Assembly: GCA_018268605.1 (NCBI GenBank)
Contig: JAFDWG010000341.1
Coordinates: forward strand, 1-45,061
DNA length: 45,061 nt
Reading direction: 5' to 3'
Origin: Actinomycetota bacterium
GTDB taxonomy: Bacteria > Actinomycetota > Thermoleophilia > Solirubrobacterales > 70-9
Part shown: positions 3 through 6,939 of the stretch, piece after piece
Layout: every line of letters begins with the position of its first letter
Numbering within the stretch: the stretch's first letter is position 1
Notes under the pieces: generated by a model
The model's database searches: none
What the model saw: only the letters and a program-made list of their open reading frames with translations
Told to the model about the DNA's origin: nothing
Position numbers and translations under genes: made by a program

Positions 3-149
3 CACGTCCTGCTCGGCGTCAACGTCCGCCACGCCGACGAACAGCTGCGCGGCACGCTCGCCCTTCCGCACGGCCTCGGCAAAGACGTCTCGGTCGCGGT
101 CTTCGCCCAGGGCGAGAAGGCGCGCGACGCCGAGGCCGCCGGCGCAGAA
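3..149 (+). pseudogene. rplA: Ribosomal protein L1 fragment, truncated on both sides
   Basis: The plus frame starting at base 3 reads as the N-terminal domain of ribosomal protein L1. Recognisable pieces, in order, are [25 protein letters not shown] and [10 protein letters not shown], ending at EAAGAE. These align colinearly with the L1 segment RLGVDPRKADQ..VRGT..LPHGTGK..VAVFA.GEKA..A..AGA. After codon 147-149 the frame stays open but is only the antisense of ctaB, so L1 similarity stops abruptly about 100 residues into the protein. L1 is a near-universal single-copy 50S protein, so a fragment here is out of place. The 5' side runs off the window. It could be a duplicated remnant or, more likely, an assembly or amplification chimera at a contig end. 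Identification of the fragment is secure; the cause is inferred. Confidence 0.8.
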
Positions 150-878
150 GGGGAGCTGGGTGACGGCGTAGAGGAGGACGGTGTAGAGGAGGATCTGGCG
201 TCGGGTCTCGTCCTCTCCCGCGACCACCGGGAGCATCGGGATGCGGGCCGCTTCGTAGTCGTCCTTCATCAGGATCGAGAGGGCCCAGAAGTGGGGCGGG
301 GTCCAGAAGAAAACGATCGCAAAGAGGTAGAAGGCCATGCCGCTGAGGGAGCCGGTGGTGGCCGCCCAGGCGACCAGCGGGGGGACGGCGCCGGCGGCGC
401 CGCCGATGACGATGTTCTGCGGCGTGCGGCGCTTCAGCCAGAGCGTGTAGACGAAGACGTAGCCGAGCAGCCCGGAGAGGGACAGGGACGCGGCCAAGAG
501 GTTGACCTGGGTCGCCAGGAGGAGGAAGGAGAGGGCGCCGAGGGCGCAGCCGAAGAGGATCGCGGCGGCGGGGGAGACGCGACCGGCCGCCACCGGGCGA
601 TCTGCGGTGCGCTTCATCGTGATGTCGATGTCCCGATCGAGGGCGTGGTTGATCGCGCCCGCGCCGCCGGTGGAGAGGCTGCCGCCGAGGCAGGTCAGCA
701 GGATCAGGCGCAGCGACGGGCTGCCCGCCACGTACATCGTCGTCACCGTGGTCAGGAGCAGTAGCGACTGGACCTTCAGCTTGGTCAGCGTCAGGTAGTC
801 GCGAAGGGCGGTGAGCGCACGGGAGTCTGCGCCTGCCGCCTGGGAAGGCGCGGTCTGCGCGCCGGCACCGGAAGGCAT
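130..878 (-). CDS. ctaB: Protoheme IX farnesyltransferase, 3'-truncated by the L1 junction
   Basis: CtaB/CyoE is the polytopic membrane UbiA-family enzyme that farnesylates heme b to heme O for oxidase maturation. The ATG at 876-878 opens a protein with the prenyl-diphosphate/Mg motif [16 protein letters not shown] followed by RPVAAGRV, then hydrophobic segments, [12 protein letters not shown] and [14 protein letters not shown], all family hallmarks. Similarity continues to [11 protein letters not shown] and then ends around bases 130-149, where the plus-strand L1 fragment begins. The last one or two membrane helices are missing and no stop occurs before the window edge. It follows ctaD by 8 bp, so it is cotranscribed with the ctaC-ctaD pair. 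The product as present here is incomplete. Confidence 0.9.
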
Positions 879-886
879 CGTGCCGG

Positions 887-2581
887 TCAGGCTACCGGCT
901 GCGACTCACGGACCGCGCGCTGCTCGGCCTCGTGGGTGCGGGCGGCGATCGCGGCGCGGATGTCGCGAAGCGGCCGGGCACTGCGGACGTCCGGTTGGAC
1001 GTCGAAGTTGTGAACCGGAGGCGGCGAGACGGTGAACCACTCGAGCGTGTCCCCTCCCCAGGGGTCGTGGCCGGCGCGGGCGCCGCCTTTCACGCTCGCA
1101 ACCGCATTGATCAGGATCAGGGTGATGCCGACGAAGAGGATCAGGACACCGATCGAGGAGAGCAGGTTGTAGAAGTTGACGCCGGTGTGGTTGAAGAACT
1201 TGTAGGCATCGACCACCTGATCCTCTTCCCAGCCCGCCAGCGCCAGCGGCACGAAGGCCAGCAGGGTGCCCGCGGCGGTGACGACGAAGGAGATGCGCCC
1301 GAGCTGCTCGCCCATCGCGCGGCCGGTGATCTTCGGGTACCAGTAGTGGAGGGCCGCGAAACCGCCGAAGACGGCGCCGCCGATCAGGGCGAAGCTGGTC
1401 GCCGCGGTCGAGTCGGTGGTGTTTTTGAGGTAGAAGGCGGCGCCGACGAGCGACTGCTGCATCTCGGCCGCGAGGCCGAGGGACAGCATCACCAGGGCAC
1501 CGATCGACCAGAGCACCGGCGCCCGCATCCGCAGCGCGCCGCCGCGCAGGGTGGCGATCAGGTTGTAGAAGGCGAGACCGACCGGCACGATCAGGGCCAG
1601 CGACATCAGCATGCCGAAGTACTTCCAACCGATCCCGATCGGGGCGGTGTACATGTTCTGCATGTAGGCGAGGGTCCCGATCACCGCGATCGCGACGATC
1701 GAGGACATCACCGCCGCGCGGTTGAAGATCTCGTTGCCTGAGAAGACCGAGAAGATTTCGGCGATCGCGGCGAAGGCGAAGATCAGCACCAGCATGTAGG
1801 CGCCCGAGTAGAAGATCCAGGTGAGGTGCTGCCAGAGGAGCGGGGCGCCGCCGGCGCCGTCGACGAAGAAGGTGCCGTCGTAGTTGCGGTCGATCATCAG
1901 CATCGTGAAGGCGGCGAGCAGGACCGGCCCGATGAAGAGCATCAACCAGGAGCCGACGCTGGCGGCCCAGGCGAAGAGTGGGGCGCGGCGCCAGGCCATC
2001 CCGGGCGCGCGGTCGACCTGCAGCGTGGTGGCGAGGTCGATGGAGATGAGGACGAAGCCGAAGGTGGCGAATCCACAGGCGGTGATCCAGGCATCGACCC
2101 CGTTGTTGCTGAGGAAGGCGAGCTCGGAGAGGGGGGGCAGGGGATTGACGCCTGCCTCCGACGGGGTCCAGAGGAAGCCCGAGTAGAGGACGACCGCGCC
2201 GGCGGCCCAGAGCATCGTCCCCATCTGGCTGAGCCGCGGCAGCGCGGTGCCCCGCGCGCCCACCTGCAGCGGCGCGATGTAGAGGAAGAGCCCCATGATC
2301 AGCGGCAGGACGAAGAAGAAGATCGAGGTGGCGCCGTAGAGCGAGAGCACCCGGTTGAAGGTGTATGGCTCCATGAAGGTGTTCTCCGGAATCGCCAGCT
2401 GCAGGCGCATCAACAGGAGCTCGAGCGCGGCGAGGAATAGGAACCCGCCGGACCCGACCATCAGGACTTTGGCGACCGTCTTGTGGTCGGCGCTGGAGAC
2501 GAAGTCCATCCAGGCCCAACGATTGCGCTTGGGGAAGCCGTCGACGGCGATCTCGGGACGGGGCTCTTGTGCAGTGCTCAT
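887..2581 (-). CDS. Cytochrome c oxidase subunit I-like protein lacking heme and copper ligands
   Basis: A 564-residue, roughly 12-helix protein clearly homologous to CtaD/CoxA: ADHKTV near the N-terminus, YIAPLQVGAR, GPVLLAAFTMLMIDRN, LLWQHLTWIF and HYWYPKITGR all align. Every canonical metal-ligand position is substituted. The helix II heme a His is Tyr82 (LSLYGATSIFFF). HPEVY of helix VI is YSGAY (258-262). The helix VII His-His pair is Gln308-Asn309. The helix X HFH triad is Ala394-Thr395-Ser396. The K-channel Lys of helix VIII is Ala337. The acidic D-channel residue after VGAR and the Glu of HPEVY are also absent. The frame is intact with normal codon use, so this is not simple decay. 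It lies 13 bp after the ctaC-like gene and 8 bp before ctaB. By family knowledge it cannot bind heme a, a3 or CuB conventionally; a structural or non-oxidase role is inferred. Confidence 0.92.
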   Translation of the reverse strand: MSTAQEPRPEIAVDGFPKRNRWAWMDFVSSADHKTVAKVLMVGSGGFLFLAALELLLMRLQLAIPENTFMEPYTFNRVLSLYGATSIFFFVLPLIMGLFLYIAPLQVGARGTALPRLSQMGTMLWAAGAVVLYSGFLWTPSEAGVNPLPPLSELAFLSNNGVDAWITACGFATFGFVLISIDLATTLQVDRAPGMAWRRAPLFAWAASVGSWLMLFIGPVLLAAFTMLMIDRNYDGTFFVDGAGGAPLLWQHLTWIFYSGAYMLVLIFAFAAIAEIFSVFSGNEIFNRAAVMSSIVAIAVIGTLAYMQNMYTAPIGIGWKYFGMLMSLALIVPVGLAFYNLIATLRGGALRMRAPVLWSIGALVMLSLGLAAEMQQSLVGAAFYLKNTTDSTAATSFALIGGAVFGGFAALHYWYPKITGRAMGEQLGRISFVVTAAGTLLAFVPLALAGWEEDQVVDAYKFFNHTGVNFYNLLSSIGVLILFVGITLILINAVASVKGGARAGHDPWGGDTLEWFTVSPPPVHNFDVQPDVRSARPLRDIRAAIAARTHEAEQRAVRESQPVA

Positions 2582-2594
2582 TCCAGTAACCGCC

Positions 2595-3710
2595 TTACTT
2601 ACCGCCGACGATGTCTTCGACCACGTAGGCCGCGACGTTCTTGATTTCTTCTTCGCTCAGGGTCCCGGCGAAGGGTGGCATGCCGCCGCCGCCGTTGGTG
2701 ACCTGTTCTTCGGCGCTCGCCTGTTCCTGGGCTTTCGGCATCGTCGTCAGGTCAGGGCCGCCATTGCCGCCGTGGCCGTCGGAGCCGTGGCAGACCGAGC
2801 AGTTTTCGGCGAAGACTTCTTTGCCGGCTTCGGCGTTGGCGCCGCCCGCTTCGGCGGATTCGCCGCCTTCGGTGGCTTCTTCGCCTTCACCGGATTCTTC
2901 GGTGCCGCCTTCTTCTTCGCTTTCGCCTTCACCTTCGCCGATCGAAGTTTCTTCTTCTTCAGAGCCCTTTTCGGGGGCTTCTTCTTCTTCGAACTTCTTC
3001 TCTTCGGCGACCTTTTCAGACTCGATTTCCTCGGCCGCTTCGTTGCCTTTGCGGATGTCCTTCTGCTGTTCGGTGATGAATTCTTCGAAGCGTTCCGGAG
3101 AGACGACTTCCACCGCGATCCGCATCGGCGCATAGGCCTGACCGGAGAGGGTGGAGGACTGGCCCCAGAATTCGCCTTCGGCGTCGGCGCGAAAGTAGAC
3201 CGCGGTCATCTTCCCCGGGACCGCTTCGACCTTCGGCGTCAGGTCGGGGACGTTCCAGGTGTGGATCACGTCGGTCGAGGTCAGTTTCAGCTTGATCTCG
3301 GTGTGGACCGGGATCACCAGCTTGTAGTAGCTGAAGGCGCCGTTCGGGTAGTCGTAGCGCCAGATCCACTGCTGACCGGTGGTCTTGATGACCAGCGGGC
3401 CTTCGAGCTTTTCGCCGTGGTAGGAGGTCAGCCCGGCCGAGGTGGTCTTCGGCTCCGAGGTCGCGTTGGAGGTGAAGATGATGCCGAGCACGAAGAGAAG
3501 GGCGGCGAACCCTGAAAGCACGCCGGCGACGCGCCACTGCAGGCCGACGGCACCACGCGGCTGGGTGGCGACACGGCCGCGGCCACCGCGGCTGCGGCGG
3601 AGGACTCCGAAGAGGCCGAGGTTGATCGCGAGAACGACGATCAGCGCGGCGAAGAAGCCGATCCAAATGAGCGTGTTTATCTGGCCGGTGCCAGGCGAGT
3701 GCGGCGTCAA
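2595..3710 (-). CDS. Cytochrome c oxidase subunit II-like protein lacking CuA, fused to cytochrome c
   Basis: 371 residues from a TTG start at 3710. Two N-terminal membrane segments (about 12-36 and 61-79) precede a cupredoxin domain with QQWIWRYDYPNG, STDVIHTWNVPDL and PKVEAVPGK, as in CtaC. The CuA loop is degenerate: the position of GQCxELCGxxHxxM reads GQSSTLSGQAYAPM, with Ser185 and Ser189 for both Cys, Thr187 for Glu and Tyr193 for His. Only His150 and Met196 remain. A Glu-rich linker (about 225-295) leads to an intact C-terminal cytochrome c domain with CSVCH (304-308) and a likely axial Met344 in GGGGMPPF, as in caa3 oxidases. The -10 box TAGAAT lies 9 nt before the TTG, suggesting a leaderless transcript divergent from the PAP2 gene. 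It probably partners the ligandless subunit I downstream. Confidence 0.92.
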   Translation of the reverse strand: MTPHSPGTGQINTLIWIGFFAALIVVLAINLGLFGVLRRSRGGRGRVATQPRGAVGLQWRVAGVLSGFAALLFVLGIIFTSNATSEPKTTSAGLTSYHGEKLEGPLVIKTTGQQWIWRYDYPNGAFSYYKLVIPVHTEIKLKLTSTDVIHTWNVPDLTPKVEAVPGKMTAVYFRADAEGEFWGQSSTLSGQAYAPMRIAVEVVSPERFEEFITEQQKDIRKGNEAAEEIESEKVAEEKKFEEEEAPEKGSEEEETSIGEGEGESEEEGGTEESGEGEEATEGGESAEAGGANAEAGKEVFAENCSVCHGSDGHGGNGGPDLTTMPKAQEQASAEEQVTNGGGGMPPFAGTLSEEEIKNVAAYVVEDIVGGK

Positions 3711-3796
3711 GGCGCGGCCATTCTAATCACGGCGAGCGGCGCTGATGCGCTGCGGTCGGTGGGCACCGTGTGGGCTCGACCTATACTCGCCGACGC
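3711..3796. promoter_or_regulatory. Divergent promoter region, ctaC-like gene and PAP2 gene
   Basis: The spacer holds a minus-strand -10 box TAGAAT (3725-3720), 9 nt before the TTG of the ctaC-like gene. It also holds a plus-strand -10 box TATACT (3782-3787), 9 nt before the ATG at 3797. No convincing -35 hexamers or Shine-Dalgarno sequences are visible. Confidence 0.55.
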
Positions 3797-4741
3797 ATGA
3801 GGAGGCGCTCACGGCCACCGAAAGCGGTACGGCTGGCCGTCAGGGCGGGCGCGACCGCCATCGTCGGCAGCGCGATCGCCCTGCCGTTGGTGCGCAAGCG
3901 ACTGAAGATCCCGGGCCCGGTGACCCTCGCCGTGGCCGCCTCGGGACCACTCGCCGTCGCCGTCCTCGCTCCCCGTTCGCGCAAGCGCGACGTCGCCCTG
4001 TTCGCGATGCAGATGTGGGCGTTCACGGTCGTCCACGAGATGCCCTACGACGACCCCGAGGCCCTGCGCCGCCGCCTCTACACCCACTACCCGATCAAGG
4101 TGGATTCGGCGCTCGGCGTCGGCCGCCTCCCCGGGGCGCGGCTGCAGACCATCCTCGCCGGGCGCCGGCCCGCCGCGGCGCTCGACCGCTTCCTCACGGT
4201 CACCCACTGGCTCTGGTTCTTCGAGCCCTACGCCGTGCTCTTCTGGATCCTCGTCCGCCACCCGGAGCATTGTCCGCGCGCCGCCCGCCAGATGGCCGCC
4301 GTCTTCGACGCCGGCGCCTTCGGTTACTGGGCGCTGCCGACGGCGCCGCCCTGGTGGTCCTCGGAGCAGGGCCTCACCAAGGAGCCGATGCGCCGGATCA
4401 TGGTCGAGGTCGGCGAACCGCTCTGGGGGCGTTACTGGGGCCCGCTCTACAAGGCGCTCGGCGGAAATCCGTGGGCAGCGATGCCCTCGCTGCACTTCGC
4501 CACCTCGCTGCAGGGCGCGATCTCGCTCGCGGAAGGGAGCAGGCGCGAGGGCGCGGTCGGCTGGGCCTACGCGCTGGTGCTCGGCTACGGACTGGTCTAC
4601 CTCGGCGAGCACTACGTGACCGACCTGCTCGCCGGCGCCGGTCTGGTCGGCGCCGTCCGCGTCTCCGACCCGATCTTCGCCCCGGCGGTCGGCCAGGTCA
4701 GCGCGGTGATCCAACGGCTCGAGCGACTCGCGGAGGGCTAG
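3797..4741 (+). CDS. PAP2-superfamily membrane phosphatase (AUR1/inositolphosphotransferase-like)
   Basis: About 314 residues with several membrane helices and two late PAP2 signatures: AAMPSLHFATSL (motif 2 with its catalytic His) and YLGEHYVTDLLAG (motif 3, His nucleophile plus Asp). This matches the PAP2_3 / inositol phosphorylceramide synthase-like branch, which acts on lipid phosphates or transfers phospho-head-groups at the membrane. The substrate cannot be read from sequence. ATG 3797 is preferred over the in-frame GTG at 3770 because TATACT at 3782-3787 would put transcription start just upstream of 3797. The UPF0104 membrane gene follows after 32 bp, so both may belong to a lipid or envelope operon. 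Confidence 0.8.
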   Translation: MRRRSRPPKAVRLAVRAGATAIVGSAIALPLVRKRLKIPGPVTLAVAASGPLAVAVLAPRSRKRDVALFAMQMWAFTVVHEMPYDDPEALRRRLYTHYPIKVDSALGVGRLPGARLQTILAGRRPAAALDRFLTVTHWLWFFEPYAVLFWILVRHPEHCPRAARQMAAVFDAGAFGYWALPTAPPWWSSEQGLTKEPMRRIMVEVGEPLWGRYWGPLYKALGGNPWAAMPSLHFATSLQGAISLAEGSRREGAVGWAYALVLGYGLVYLGEHYVTDLLAGAGLVGAVRVSDPIFAPAVGQVSAVIQRLERLAEG

Positions 4742-4773
4742 CAGCGGCACCTCTCGGTAGCGTCCCCGGACAG

Positions 4774-5901
4774 GTGCCCGACGACGAGAGGCCAGATGAG
4801 GGGAAGGGCGGCGGTGGAATCGCCGAACTTCCGGTCTTCACCACCAAGCGGCTGTTGCAGACCGGCGTTGTGGTGATCGTGCTGCTGGTCGGGATCTACT
4901 TCCTGTTCCCCAAGCTGGTCGGGTTGGGGGACGCGCTGGACAAGCTGGGCGAAGCCGACCCGCTCTGGATCGGCATCGCGGTCGTCTTCTCGGTCGCCTC
5001 CTATGGGACCTACATCGCGCTCTTCAAAGCGGTCGTCGGCGGCGAGGCCCTGCGGCTCACCTGGGGCGAGACCTACCAGATCAACATGGCGGGGGTGGCG
5101 GCGACGTTGCTTTTCTCGGCGGGCGGCGCGGGCGGGGTGGCGCTGACCTACTGGGCGTTGCGGAAAGCCGGGATGAGGCGCCGCGAGGTAGCCCGCCGGA
5201 TGATCGCCTTCGTCGCCCTGCACTACGCCTTCTACCCGCTGGCGCTGATCGTCTTCGGCCTGTTGCTACGGACCGGCGTGCTGAACGGCGAGAACTCGGT
5301 CGAGCTGACGATCATCCCGGCGGCGGTGGCGGGGATCACGCTGGTGCTCGGCGTGCTGATCACGCTGATCCCGGCCGACGTCGAGGGGAAGCTGATGCCG
5401 CACGCCCACGGCGCCCACACGCGGAGCTTCGTCGAATGGGCCTCACGGGTGCCGGAGACGCTCGGGGACGGCTTCCGCTTCGCCCTCGGCCTCTTCGCCC
5501 ACCCCCGCAAGGGCGGGCTCGCGGTGCTCGGCGCGGCGGGCTTCTGGGCGTTCAGCATCGGCGTGCTCTGGGCCTCGTTCCACTCGCTCGGCATCCACGT
5601 GCCGCTGGCGGTCGTCGTCCAGGGCTTCTTCCTCGGGATGGTCGCCAACCTCTTCCCGCTGGCGCCGGCGGGCGTGGGGGCGGTGGACGCCGGGATGATC
5701 GGCGCCTTCGTCCTCTTCGGCCTGCCCGAGGAGACGGTCTTTCCGGCGATCCTGATCTTCCGCCTGGTCTCCTTCTGGATGCCGATCCCGCCCGGCGTCG
5801 TCGCCTTCTTCCAACTGCGCAACACTGTCCGTCGATGGGAAGCGGAGGGGCTGCCGATCGACCGCGACGGTGGTACTATAAAAAGTAAAGTAATGGCCTA
5901 G
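4774..5901 (+). CDS. UPF0104 / lysylphosphatidylglycerol synthase TM-region family membrane protein
   Basis: About 375 residues from GTG 4774 with a hydrophilic N-terminus and roughly eight membrane helices. The pattern of conserved pieces (YQINMAGVAATLLFSAGGAGGVALTYWALRKAGM, shown here as NMAGVAATLLF and GGAGGVALTYW; LFPLAPAGVGAVDAGMIG; RLVSFWMPIPPGVVAFF) is that of the UPF0104/MprF flippase-domain family. No catalytic aminoacyltransferase domain is attached, so a lipid flippase or lipid-linked transport role is the best inference. It lies 32 bp after the PAP2 gene and 24 bp before trxB. The C-terminus ends in a short Lys-containing tail. A longer reading frame opening at 3745 is only an out-of-frame shadow across the PAP2 gene. 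Confidence 0.8.
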   Translation: MPDDERPDEGKGGGGIAELPVFTTKRLLQTGVVVIVLLVGIYFLFPKLVGLGDALDKLGEADPLWIGIAVVFSVASYGTYIALFKAVVGGEALRLTWGETYQINMAGVAATLLFSAGGAGGVALTYWALRKAGMRRREVARRMIAFVALHYAFYPLALIVFGLLLRTGVLNGENSVELTIIPAAVAGITLVLGVLITLIPADVEGKLMPHAHGAHTRSFVEWASRVPETLGDGFRFALGLFAHPRKGGLAVLGAAGFWAFSIGVLWASFHSLGIHVPLAVVVQGFFLGMVANLFPLAPAGVGAVDAGMIGAFVLFGLPEETVFPAILIFRLVSFWMPIPPGVVAFFQLRNTVRRWEAEGLPIDRDGGTIKSKVMA

Positions 5902-5925: not shown

Positions 5926-6939
5926 ATGAGCGAGGACACCAAGAAGAAGGTCGAGAACGTGATCATCGTCGGCGGCGGTCCGGCCGGCTACACGGCGGCG
6001 CTCTACACCGCCCGCGCGAACCTCGAGCCGCTCGTCTTCGAGGGCTTCCAGTGGGGCGGCCAGCTGCAGAATACGACCGACGTCGAGAACTTCCCCGGCT
6101 ACCCCGACGGGATCATGGGCCCCGAGATGATGAGTCAGTTCCGCGTCCAGGCCGAGAAATTCGGGACCCGCTTCGTCACCGACGACGTCGACCGCGTCGA
6201 GCTTTCAACCGACGGCGGCGTCCACAAGGTCTTCCTCGGCGACGAGGAGCACCGCGCCAAGGCCGTGGTCCTGGCGATGGGGGCGGAGCCCAAACGGCTC
6301 GGCGTCCCCGGTGAGATGGAGCTCGCGGGCCGTGGCGTCTCCACCTGCGGCGTCTGCGACGGCGCCTTCTTCAAGGGCCACCGCGTGCTGGTGATCGGCG
6401 GTGGCGACTCGGCGATGGAGGACTCCGTCTTCATCTCGAAGTTCGCCGACGAGCTGACGATCGTCAACCGCCGCGACGAGTTCCGCGCCTCCAAGATCAT
6501 GTACGACCGGGCGCTCGCGGTCGAGAACATCGACACGCTGACCCCGTACGTGCCGACCGAGTTCGTCGCCGGCGAGGACGGGAAACTGGCCAAGGTCCAC
6601 ATGCGCCACGCCGAGACCGGCGAGGAGATCGACGTCGAGGCGACCGGCGCCTTCGTCGCGATCGGCCACGTGCCGCGCTCGGAGGTCGTCAAGGACCAGG
6701 TCGACGTCGACGAGGACGGCTACATCAAGGTGGAGCCGGGCTCGACCCGCACCAACCTCCCCGGCGTCTTCGCCGTCGGCGACGTCGTCGACCACACCTA
6801 CCGCCAGGCGGTCACCGCCGCCGGCACGGGCTGCATGGGCGCGCTCGACGCCGAGCGCTACCTGCGCGATGCGCCGCCTGCGGTCGAGGCCCACTGGTTC
6901 CCCGGCGGCGAGCCCGCCGAGATCGCACCCACCGCTTAG
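5926..6939 (+). CDS. trxB: Thioredoxin reductase
   Basis: 337 residues of the class II pyridine nucleotide-disulfide oxidoreductase family, reducing thioredoxin with NADPH through FAD in the cytoplasm. Seen in order: FAD-binding GGGPAGYTAALYTAR near residue 16, the redox pair CGVCDG (Cys141 and Cys144), NADPH-binding GGGDSAMEDSVF, and the C-terminal FAD motif GVFAVGDVVDHTYRQAVTAAGTG. Length matches the family plus a short C-terminal extension rich in Pro and Ala. An AGAAGGGCGAG Shine-Dalgarno-like stretch lies just before the ATG, unusual in this window. It follows the UPF0104 gene by 24 bp. Confidence 0.96.
   Translation: MSEDTKKKVENVIIVGGGPAGYTAALYTARANLEPLVFEGFQWGGQLQNTTDVENFPGYPDGIMGPEMMSQFRVQAEKFGTRFVTDDVDRVELSTDGGVHKVFLGDEEHRAKAVVLAMGAEPKRLGVPGEMELAGRGVSTCGVCDGAFFKGHRVLVIGGGDSAMEDSVFISKFADELTIVNRRDEFRASKIMYDRALAVENIDTLTPYVPTEFVAGEDGKLAKVHMRHAETGEEIDVEATGAFVAIGHVPRSEVVKDQVDVDEDGYIKVEPGSTRTNLPGVFAVGDVVDHTYRQAVTAAGTGCMGALDAERYLRDAPPAVEAHWFPGGEPAEIAPTA

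Follow-up and report, generated by a model that had tools for sequence, protein, structure and literature searches.

Why would a bacterium keep, in intact reading frames, the two core genes of a cytochrome c oxidase (CcO) whose metal ligands have gone? The question is raised by a pair of genes, ctaC′ and ctaD′, in a 45,061-nucleotide stretch of Actinomycetota DNA (the window), which is contig C268 of a metagenome-assembled genome (MAG) of 3.79 Mb in 375 contigs that is 85% complete (G000). The ctaD′ gene (positions 887–2581, minus strand) encodes a 564-residue homologue of subunit I with 12 transmembrane (TM) helices, free of heme and copper ligands, and ctaC′ (2595–3710, minus strand, TTG start) encodes a 371-residue, CuA-less homologue of subunit II with an acidic linker and a C-terminal cytochrome c domain. 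The frames and coordinates of the original prediction, which was made from the sequence alone, are confirmed, and both frames are intact. CtaD′ matches Pfam COX1 along almost its entire sequence (250.7 bits), scores far below the cut-off of the NCBIfam equivalog TIGR02891 CtaD_CoxA (339.2 versus 670.75 bits) and has subunit I of mycobacterial complex IV (CIV) as its top PDB match by sequence. CtaC′ contains the Pfam domains COX2 (76.3 bits) and Cytochrome_CBB3 (64 bits).

The most prominent feature of the pair is the emptying of its metal sites. In an alignment with liganded relatives, the six canonical His columns fall at CtaD′ residues 82, 259, 308, 309, 394 and 396, which are Tyr, Ser, Gln, Asn, Ala and Ser; the same columns read HHHHHH in 45 of 45 heme-copper oxidase (HCO) sequences checked from other bacteria. 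Tyr82 (2336–2338; this and the following codons are on the minus strand and were assigned by alignment) occupies the position of the helix II His, a heme a ligand, and YSGAYM (residues 258–263; 1793–1810) that of GHPEVY, with loss of the CuB His, Glu286 and the cross-link Tyr. Gln308-Asn309 (1655–1660) replaces the CuB His-His pair, Ala394-Thr395-Ser396 (1394–1402) the HFH motif that ligates heme a3 and heme a, and Val457-Asp458 (1208–1213) the Arg-Arg pair that holds the heme propionates. Equivalents of the A-type proton-pathway residues are likewise absent (D132 to G111, E286, or YS, to A261, and K362 to A337), and the Mg-site His-Asp of CtaD, now K386-N387, is presumably lost too. The prediction of ligand loss in both subunits thus holds, with the residues as it gave them except at HPEVY. 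There it had aligned YSGAY (258–262), and the loss stands; the register is shifted by one because the alignment here has no gap and is pinned by W255 and F257; in it, HPEVY corresponds to S259-G260-A261-Y262-M263 and the Tyr of the His-Tyr cross-link to Met263 rather than Tyr262.

The CuA loop of CtaC′ is reduced to GQSSTLSGQAYAPM (183–196; 3123–3164, minus strand, by alignment), with the substitutions C185S, E187T, C189S and H193Y. Both Cys, the Glu and one His are therefore gone, as had been predicted, but the site is not wholly erased: Met196 (3123–3125) and His150 (3261–3263; both minus strand, by alignment), which we take to be ligands of the same CuA copper, are retained here and in every aligned member of the window's own family, which carries the tool code f1. 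Read from the aligned sequences, CtaC′-CtaD′ is without any complete ligand set for CuA, heme a, heme a3 or CuB.

This loss is shared across the family. A ligand-free CtaD′ is found in 48 of 50 f1 genomes, at 45–91% identity and in most cases along almost the whole protein. The two genomes without it are G024, which is 54% complete, and G027, which is 97% complete and keeps ctaC2-ctaD2 (G027:C2, L233) while having neither ctaC′-ctaD′ nor a detectable COX3. All but one of the 48 carriers also encode a canonical CtaD (∼28%–34% identity), a second, intact ctaC-ctaD-ctaE set being there in nearly every case, and in the genome of the window an intact ctaC2-ctaD2-ctaE lies on contig C37, so that the normal subunits I, II and III sought elsewhere in the genome are present. 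The carriers are soil and water bacteria; every named f1 member is an uncultured MAG labelled Solirubrobacterales, Thermoleophilia or Actinomycetota, and many projects contributed them. Throughout f1, the helix II His is Tyr or another residue, HPEVY is lost, His-His (the CuB pair) is Gln-Asn in all relatives read, and the first His of HFH is lost; the first five His columns are altered across the whole family. At the second HFH position, 26 of 41 relatives retain the His, which puts the window at the extreme end of ligand loss. Homologues with the same substitutions thus exist in tens of independently assembled genomes. Their identical losses exclude sequencing or assembly error or chance, and in effect answer the objection that resequencing might restore the ligands.

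We estimated dN/dS (the ratio of nonsynonymous to synonymous substitution rates) by the Nei-Gojobori method (NG86), whose dS is rough in GC-rich genomes. For CtaD′, f1 pairs of at least 85% identity give 0.11–0.34, with one near-identical pair at 0.04; liganded CtaD1 in family f2 gives 0.09–0.29, CtaD2 of the same f1 pairs about 0.05–0.19, and CtaC′ 0.16–0.42. These values therefore indicate purifying selection on CtaD′, about as strong as on its liganded orthologue and weaker than on CtaD2, and CtaD′ also evolves faster at the protein level than the active CtaD2. The concern that codon-level analysis would reveal relaxed selection is not borne out, and decay in a single genome is ruled out by the family-wide retention together with dN/dS. 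The coordinated, retained ligand loss in f1 is real and old, and because the ligand-free pair is kept under selection, it very probably has acquired a new role outside catalysis.

An AlphaFold2 model of CtaD′ built with 20 family sequences (pLDDT [predicted local distance difference test] 75; pTM [predicted template modelling score] 0.81) has the 12-TM arrangement and aligns with Rhodobacter sphaeroides CcO subunit I (6pw1_C; VIA-align Z 41.0, root-mean-square deviation 2.6 over 479 residues) and with Mycobacterium smegmatis CIV (6adq_F; Z 40.6). The 12-helix subunit I fold is thus predicted to be intact. The model of CtaC′ comprises helices 9–41 and 55–83 followed by a β/cupredoxin domain at pLDDT ∼90; its cytochrome c part, covered by three alignment rows only, is modelled poorly. 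Residues that are at least 95% common to ligand-free and liganded orthologues cluster in loops and at helix ends (e.g., DPW, LEW, SPP, NFD), and comprise H33, K34, R59, R110, D163, W165, D231, R232, H252, E275, W414, K417, D506-P507, L513-E514-W515, S519-P520-P521 and N525-F526-D527. Fixed or nearly fixed, and new in ligand-free CtaD′, are Q308, N309, E373, D458, Y262 and T395. The ligand-free set used for the conservation and volume comparisons was chosen by the strings QNM/QNL, and the invariance of Q308 and N309 is for this reason taken from unselected alignments, in which all f1 rows carry both. Net TM side-chain volume falls by ∼1,400 cubic angstroms, so the heme pockets are not merely plugged by large residues; a cavity filled by bulky side chains is unsupported.

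The origin of the pair can be read from its slot. In families f2 and f3, the order is TrxB, flippase, PAP2, ctaC, ctaD, ctaB and a small TM protein, with ctaC2-ctaD2-ctaE nearby, and the ctaC-ctaD position is occupied by a fully liganded, HPEVY-type (A1-type) oxidase; in the tree, ligand-free CtaD′ falls within the CtaD1 group, apart from CtaD2. The ligand-free pair occupies the slot of this oxidase, and is therefore the same oxidase inactivated in place. The A1-type aa3 CtaC-CtaD of other Solirubrobacterales families (L144–L154) share gene order, neighbors and fold with the window pair, at 35%–39% identity for CtaD; they have the six His, CuA, the D and K channels, Glu286 and the Arg pair, whereas not one of these sites is complete in the window pair. 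By synteny and tree, the window pair is the orthologue of this oxidase. Genera g20, g28 (in part) and g36 encode a liganded CtaD1 and no CtaD2, an example being L149 (G222). Canonical COX3 was not found in these CtaD1-only genomes, which apparently have an A1 oxidase without subunit III; active CtaD1 therefore needed no CtaE, which belongs to CtaD2. We accordingly dropped the argument that a shared subunit III (one COX3 per two CtaD) places both cores in one complex. The window's genome also holds further canonical ctaD pieces at contig ends (G000:C233:17287–18084 and G000:C374:37–504), probably halves of a third copy.

Two other lineages have lost ligands. In family f4 (G170, G173, G215 and G394), a strongly altered CtaD′ sits in the same slot, beside an intact CtaC2-CtaD2-CtaE; the helix II His is Ser, HH is VV or QV, HFH and CuA are lost, and one of the two Args is lost. 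These CtaD′ are very divergent (loci L234:6697–8424 in G173, L191, L192 and L196), and their “SHSAPY” retains the first His of HPEVY. In G173, CtaA lies between ctaD′ and ctaB, and the active CtaC2 (L234:11613–12632) has a CxxCH near its C terminus and is caa3-like, unlike CtaC2 of f1. Families f1 and f4 group with support of 100. However, f4 sits on a very long branch whose placement is not stable and shifts beside G158 once f1 is omitted, and the grouping may reflect long-branch attraction rather than one shared loss. G158, one species of a third family, is a MAG from Lake Pavin whose pair (L069:5228–6895 and 3951–5213) keeps both low-spin heme His; HPEVY has become QPQSY, HH has become SR, Gln stands in place of the heme a3 His, and the CuA site is gone. 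Two congeners with 65%–67% identity are fully liganded. CtaD2 of G158 is 97% identical to that of its congener G186 and CtaD1 67% identical to a congener's, so change is concentrated in CtaD1. G158 lost its ligands for heme a3/CuB and for CuA independently and, it seems, recently. A single origin of all degenerate CtaD is rejected, since the approximately unbiased (AU) test rejects an f1+f4+G158 clade (p 0.016).

The cytochrome c domain of CtaC′ (2598–2840, minus strand) has the CxxCH motif (CSVCH, 304–308) and distal Met (Met344) of a class I cytochrome c. Only a few species of a single genus carry the fusion (L006, L009/L037 and L012/L042); in the nearest relatives (L007 and L008) the protein stops with the acidic linker, and the remaining f1 members have no such domain. 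Judged from these sequences, it is a late feature of few species and no part of the core. The original prediction was right that the heme c site is intact, but not in treating it as kept from the ancestral oxidase, and its proposal of an electron sink through heme c fails as a general function because the domain lies outside the conserved core.

What, then, would the pair do? We favor, at a probability of about 0.5, a pseudo-oxidase, in which the inactivated A1-type CtaC1-CtaD1 core serves the active oxidase in a structural or regulatory way, without catalysis of its own. The core was inactivated in place, with fold and operon retained, beside an active CtaC2-CtaD2-CtaE, and CtaC′-CtaD′ in the respiratory membrane would most likely dock to that oxidase or to its cytochrome c donor. 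In species with the fusion, the heme could act as a tethered electron carrier for the CuA of neighboring CtaC2, because CtaC′ itself offers no acceptor; the need of a heme c on a CuA-less subunit for a nearby acceptor is the main hint of a complex with CtaC2-CtaD2. From the coordinated loss, a retained new role had been predicted; the coordination, the intact frames and the selection are all found, and a scaffold is the role that we infer to fit best. Several points weigh against this partnership. Liganded CtaD1 is the sole A-type CtaD in g20, some g28 and g36, so that ancestrally CtaD1 was no obligate partner, and the nearly complete G027, with CtaD2 and no CtaD1′, implies that the pair was dispensable at least once. 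We also note that the polar residues newly conserved in the buried core (Q308, N309, E373 and T395) exceed the needs of a passive scaffold.

These same residues underlie the most interesting rival, that the core, once emptied, provides a polar cavity for binding or conducting a small molecule or ion and works as a transporter, channel or sensor independently of the active oxidase. The occurrence of Gln308-Asn309 in all f1 read, the new conservation of E373, T395, Y262 and D458 at the former binuclear centre and propionate Args, and the drop in side-chain volume, which leaves the cavity not simply filled, would all suit it. The f4 proteins, however, have neither N309 nor E373 and share Q308 only in part, the pair is not genetically tied to any transport pathway, and the equivalents of the D and K channels and of Glu286 are all lost; we regard this reading as possible but unlikely. 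The proton channel suggested originally is unlikely by the old routes, every known proton-pathway residue having gone. Less probable still is an assembly factor, a cofactor-free template that would aid delivery of heme a or copper to CtaC2-CtaD2, with His150 and Met196 holding one Cu(I). Both residues are present in all f1 aligned, where bo3-type CuA-less subunits II mostly have Asn at the His, ctaB adjoins the pair and ctaA is in the cluster; but ctaB already adjoined the active oxidase, which passed this linkage on, the His is lost in two f4 members, and G027 does without the pair.

The remaining alternatives fare worse. A residual electron-transfer protein or electron buffer, using heme c in some species and perhaps a single His396/Tyr82 heme in others, could draw on the intact CSVCH and Met344 of the window and on the His396 retained by 26 of 41 relatives, but with heme c confined to few species of one genus, the propionate Args gone throughout and His396 absent from the window itself, we consider it rather implausible. 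Similarly doubtful is a slowly decaying, functionless relic of a redundant oxidase: the faster evolution of CtaD′ than CtaD2, its loss in G027 and the seemingly recent, accelerated change in G158 are as a relic would have them, whereas intact frames in tens of genomes family-wide and a dN/dS well below 1, near that of liganded orthologues, are not. The fragmentation of the window's MAG into 375 contigs might raise suspicion of an artefact of sequencing, assembly or alignment, which the recurrence of the same substitutions in MAGs of many unrelated projects makes barely conceivable.

The surrounding genes fit the synteny described above. The genes ctaC′, ctaD′ and ctaB run in one direction on the minus strand with intergenic gaps of 8–13 bp; ctaB (heme O synthase; 3–878, minus strand) is cut by the contig end and scores 317 bits against the NCBIfam heme o synthase model, above cut-off. 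Divergent from them is a PAP2-like membrane protein gene in conserved synteny (3770–4741, plus strand), with homologues in the same place in L042, L037, L236 and others, followed by the synteny marker thioredoxin reductase (TrxB; 5926–6939, plus strand), with homologues in the same place in f1, f2 and f4 loci. A separate diheme cytochrome c lipoprotein gene and ctaA are also in the cluster.

Quinol oxidases are a known case in which CuA alone has been lost. Like CtaC′, their subunit II (CyoA/QoxA) is a CuA-less cupredoxin in which, among bo3-type rows, both Cys are Ser, the His is aromatic and the Met is kept. In contrast, CtaC′ keeps His150, at a position that is mostly Asn in the bo3 type, and the partner of CyoA/QoxA is a full heme-copper oxidase subunit I, whereas the heme-copper ligands of a quinol oxidase (bo3/aa3-600) subunit I are absent from CtaD′. 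In the open-licence literature searched, we found no published description of ligand-free HCO subunits, and to our knowledge no conserved, selected HCO member without any metal ligand set has been known. As far as can be told, the family-wide conservation of a core in which no metal site is complete is new. It suggests that the 12-helix core can be useful without redox chemistry, and nature supplies graded intermediates, from the low-spin heme ligands of G158 through the His396 of many relatives to none in the window. A paper describing an HCO classifier discarded sequences without six His (PMC3084760), and such filtering of HCO databases may explain why ligand-free proteins were overlooked; ligand-filtered databases miss such pairs, and annotation may label them “cytochrome c oxidase.”

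Two known assemblies resemble the favored partnership in part. In the B-type CcO dimer of Aquifex aeolicus, two copies of subunit I are in contact within a functional oxidase (PMC8251803); this is a homodimer of active subunits, unlike the proposed CtaD′-CtaD2. In cytochrome bd, CydB is the pseudosymmetric heterodimer partner of CydA, which holds all three hemes (PMC9846854). The likeness is of a heme-free subunit beside a heme-bearing one, although the CydB fold is unrelated and the CtaD′-CtaD2 pairing hypothetical. The window pair and its relatives open a direct test of whether oxidases form hetero-complexes with their ligand-free paralogues, as CydA does with the heme-less CydB.
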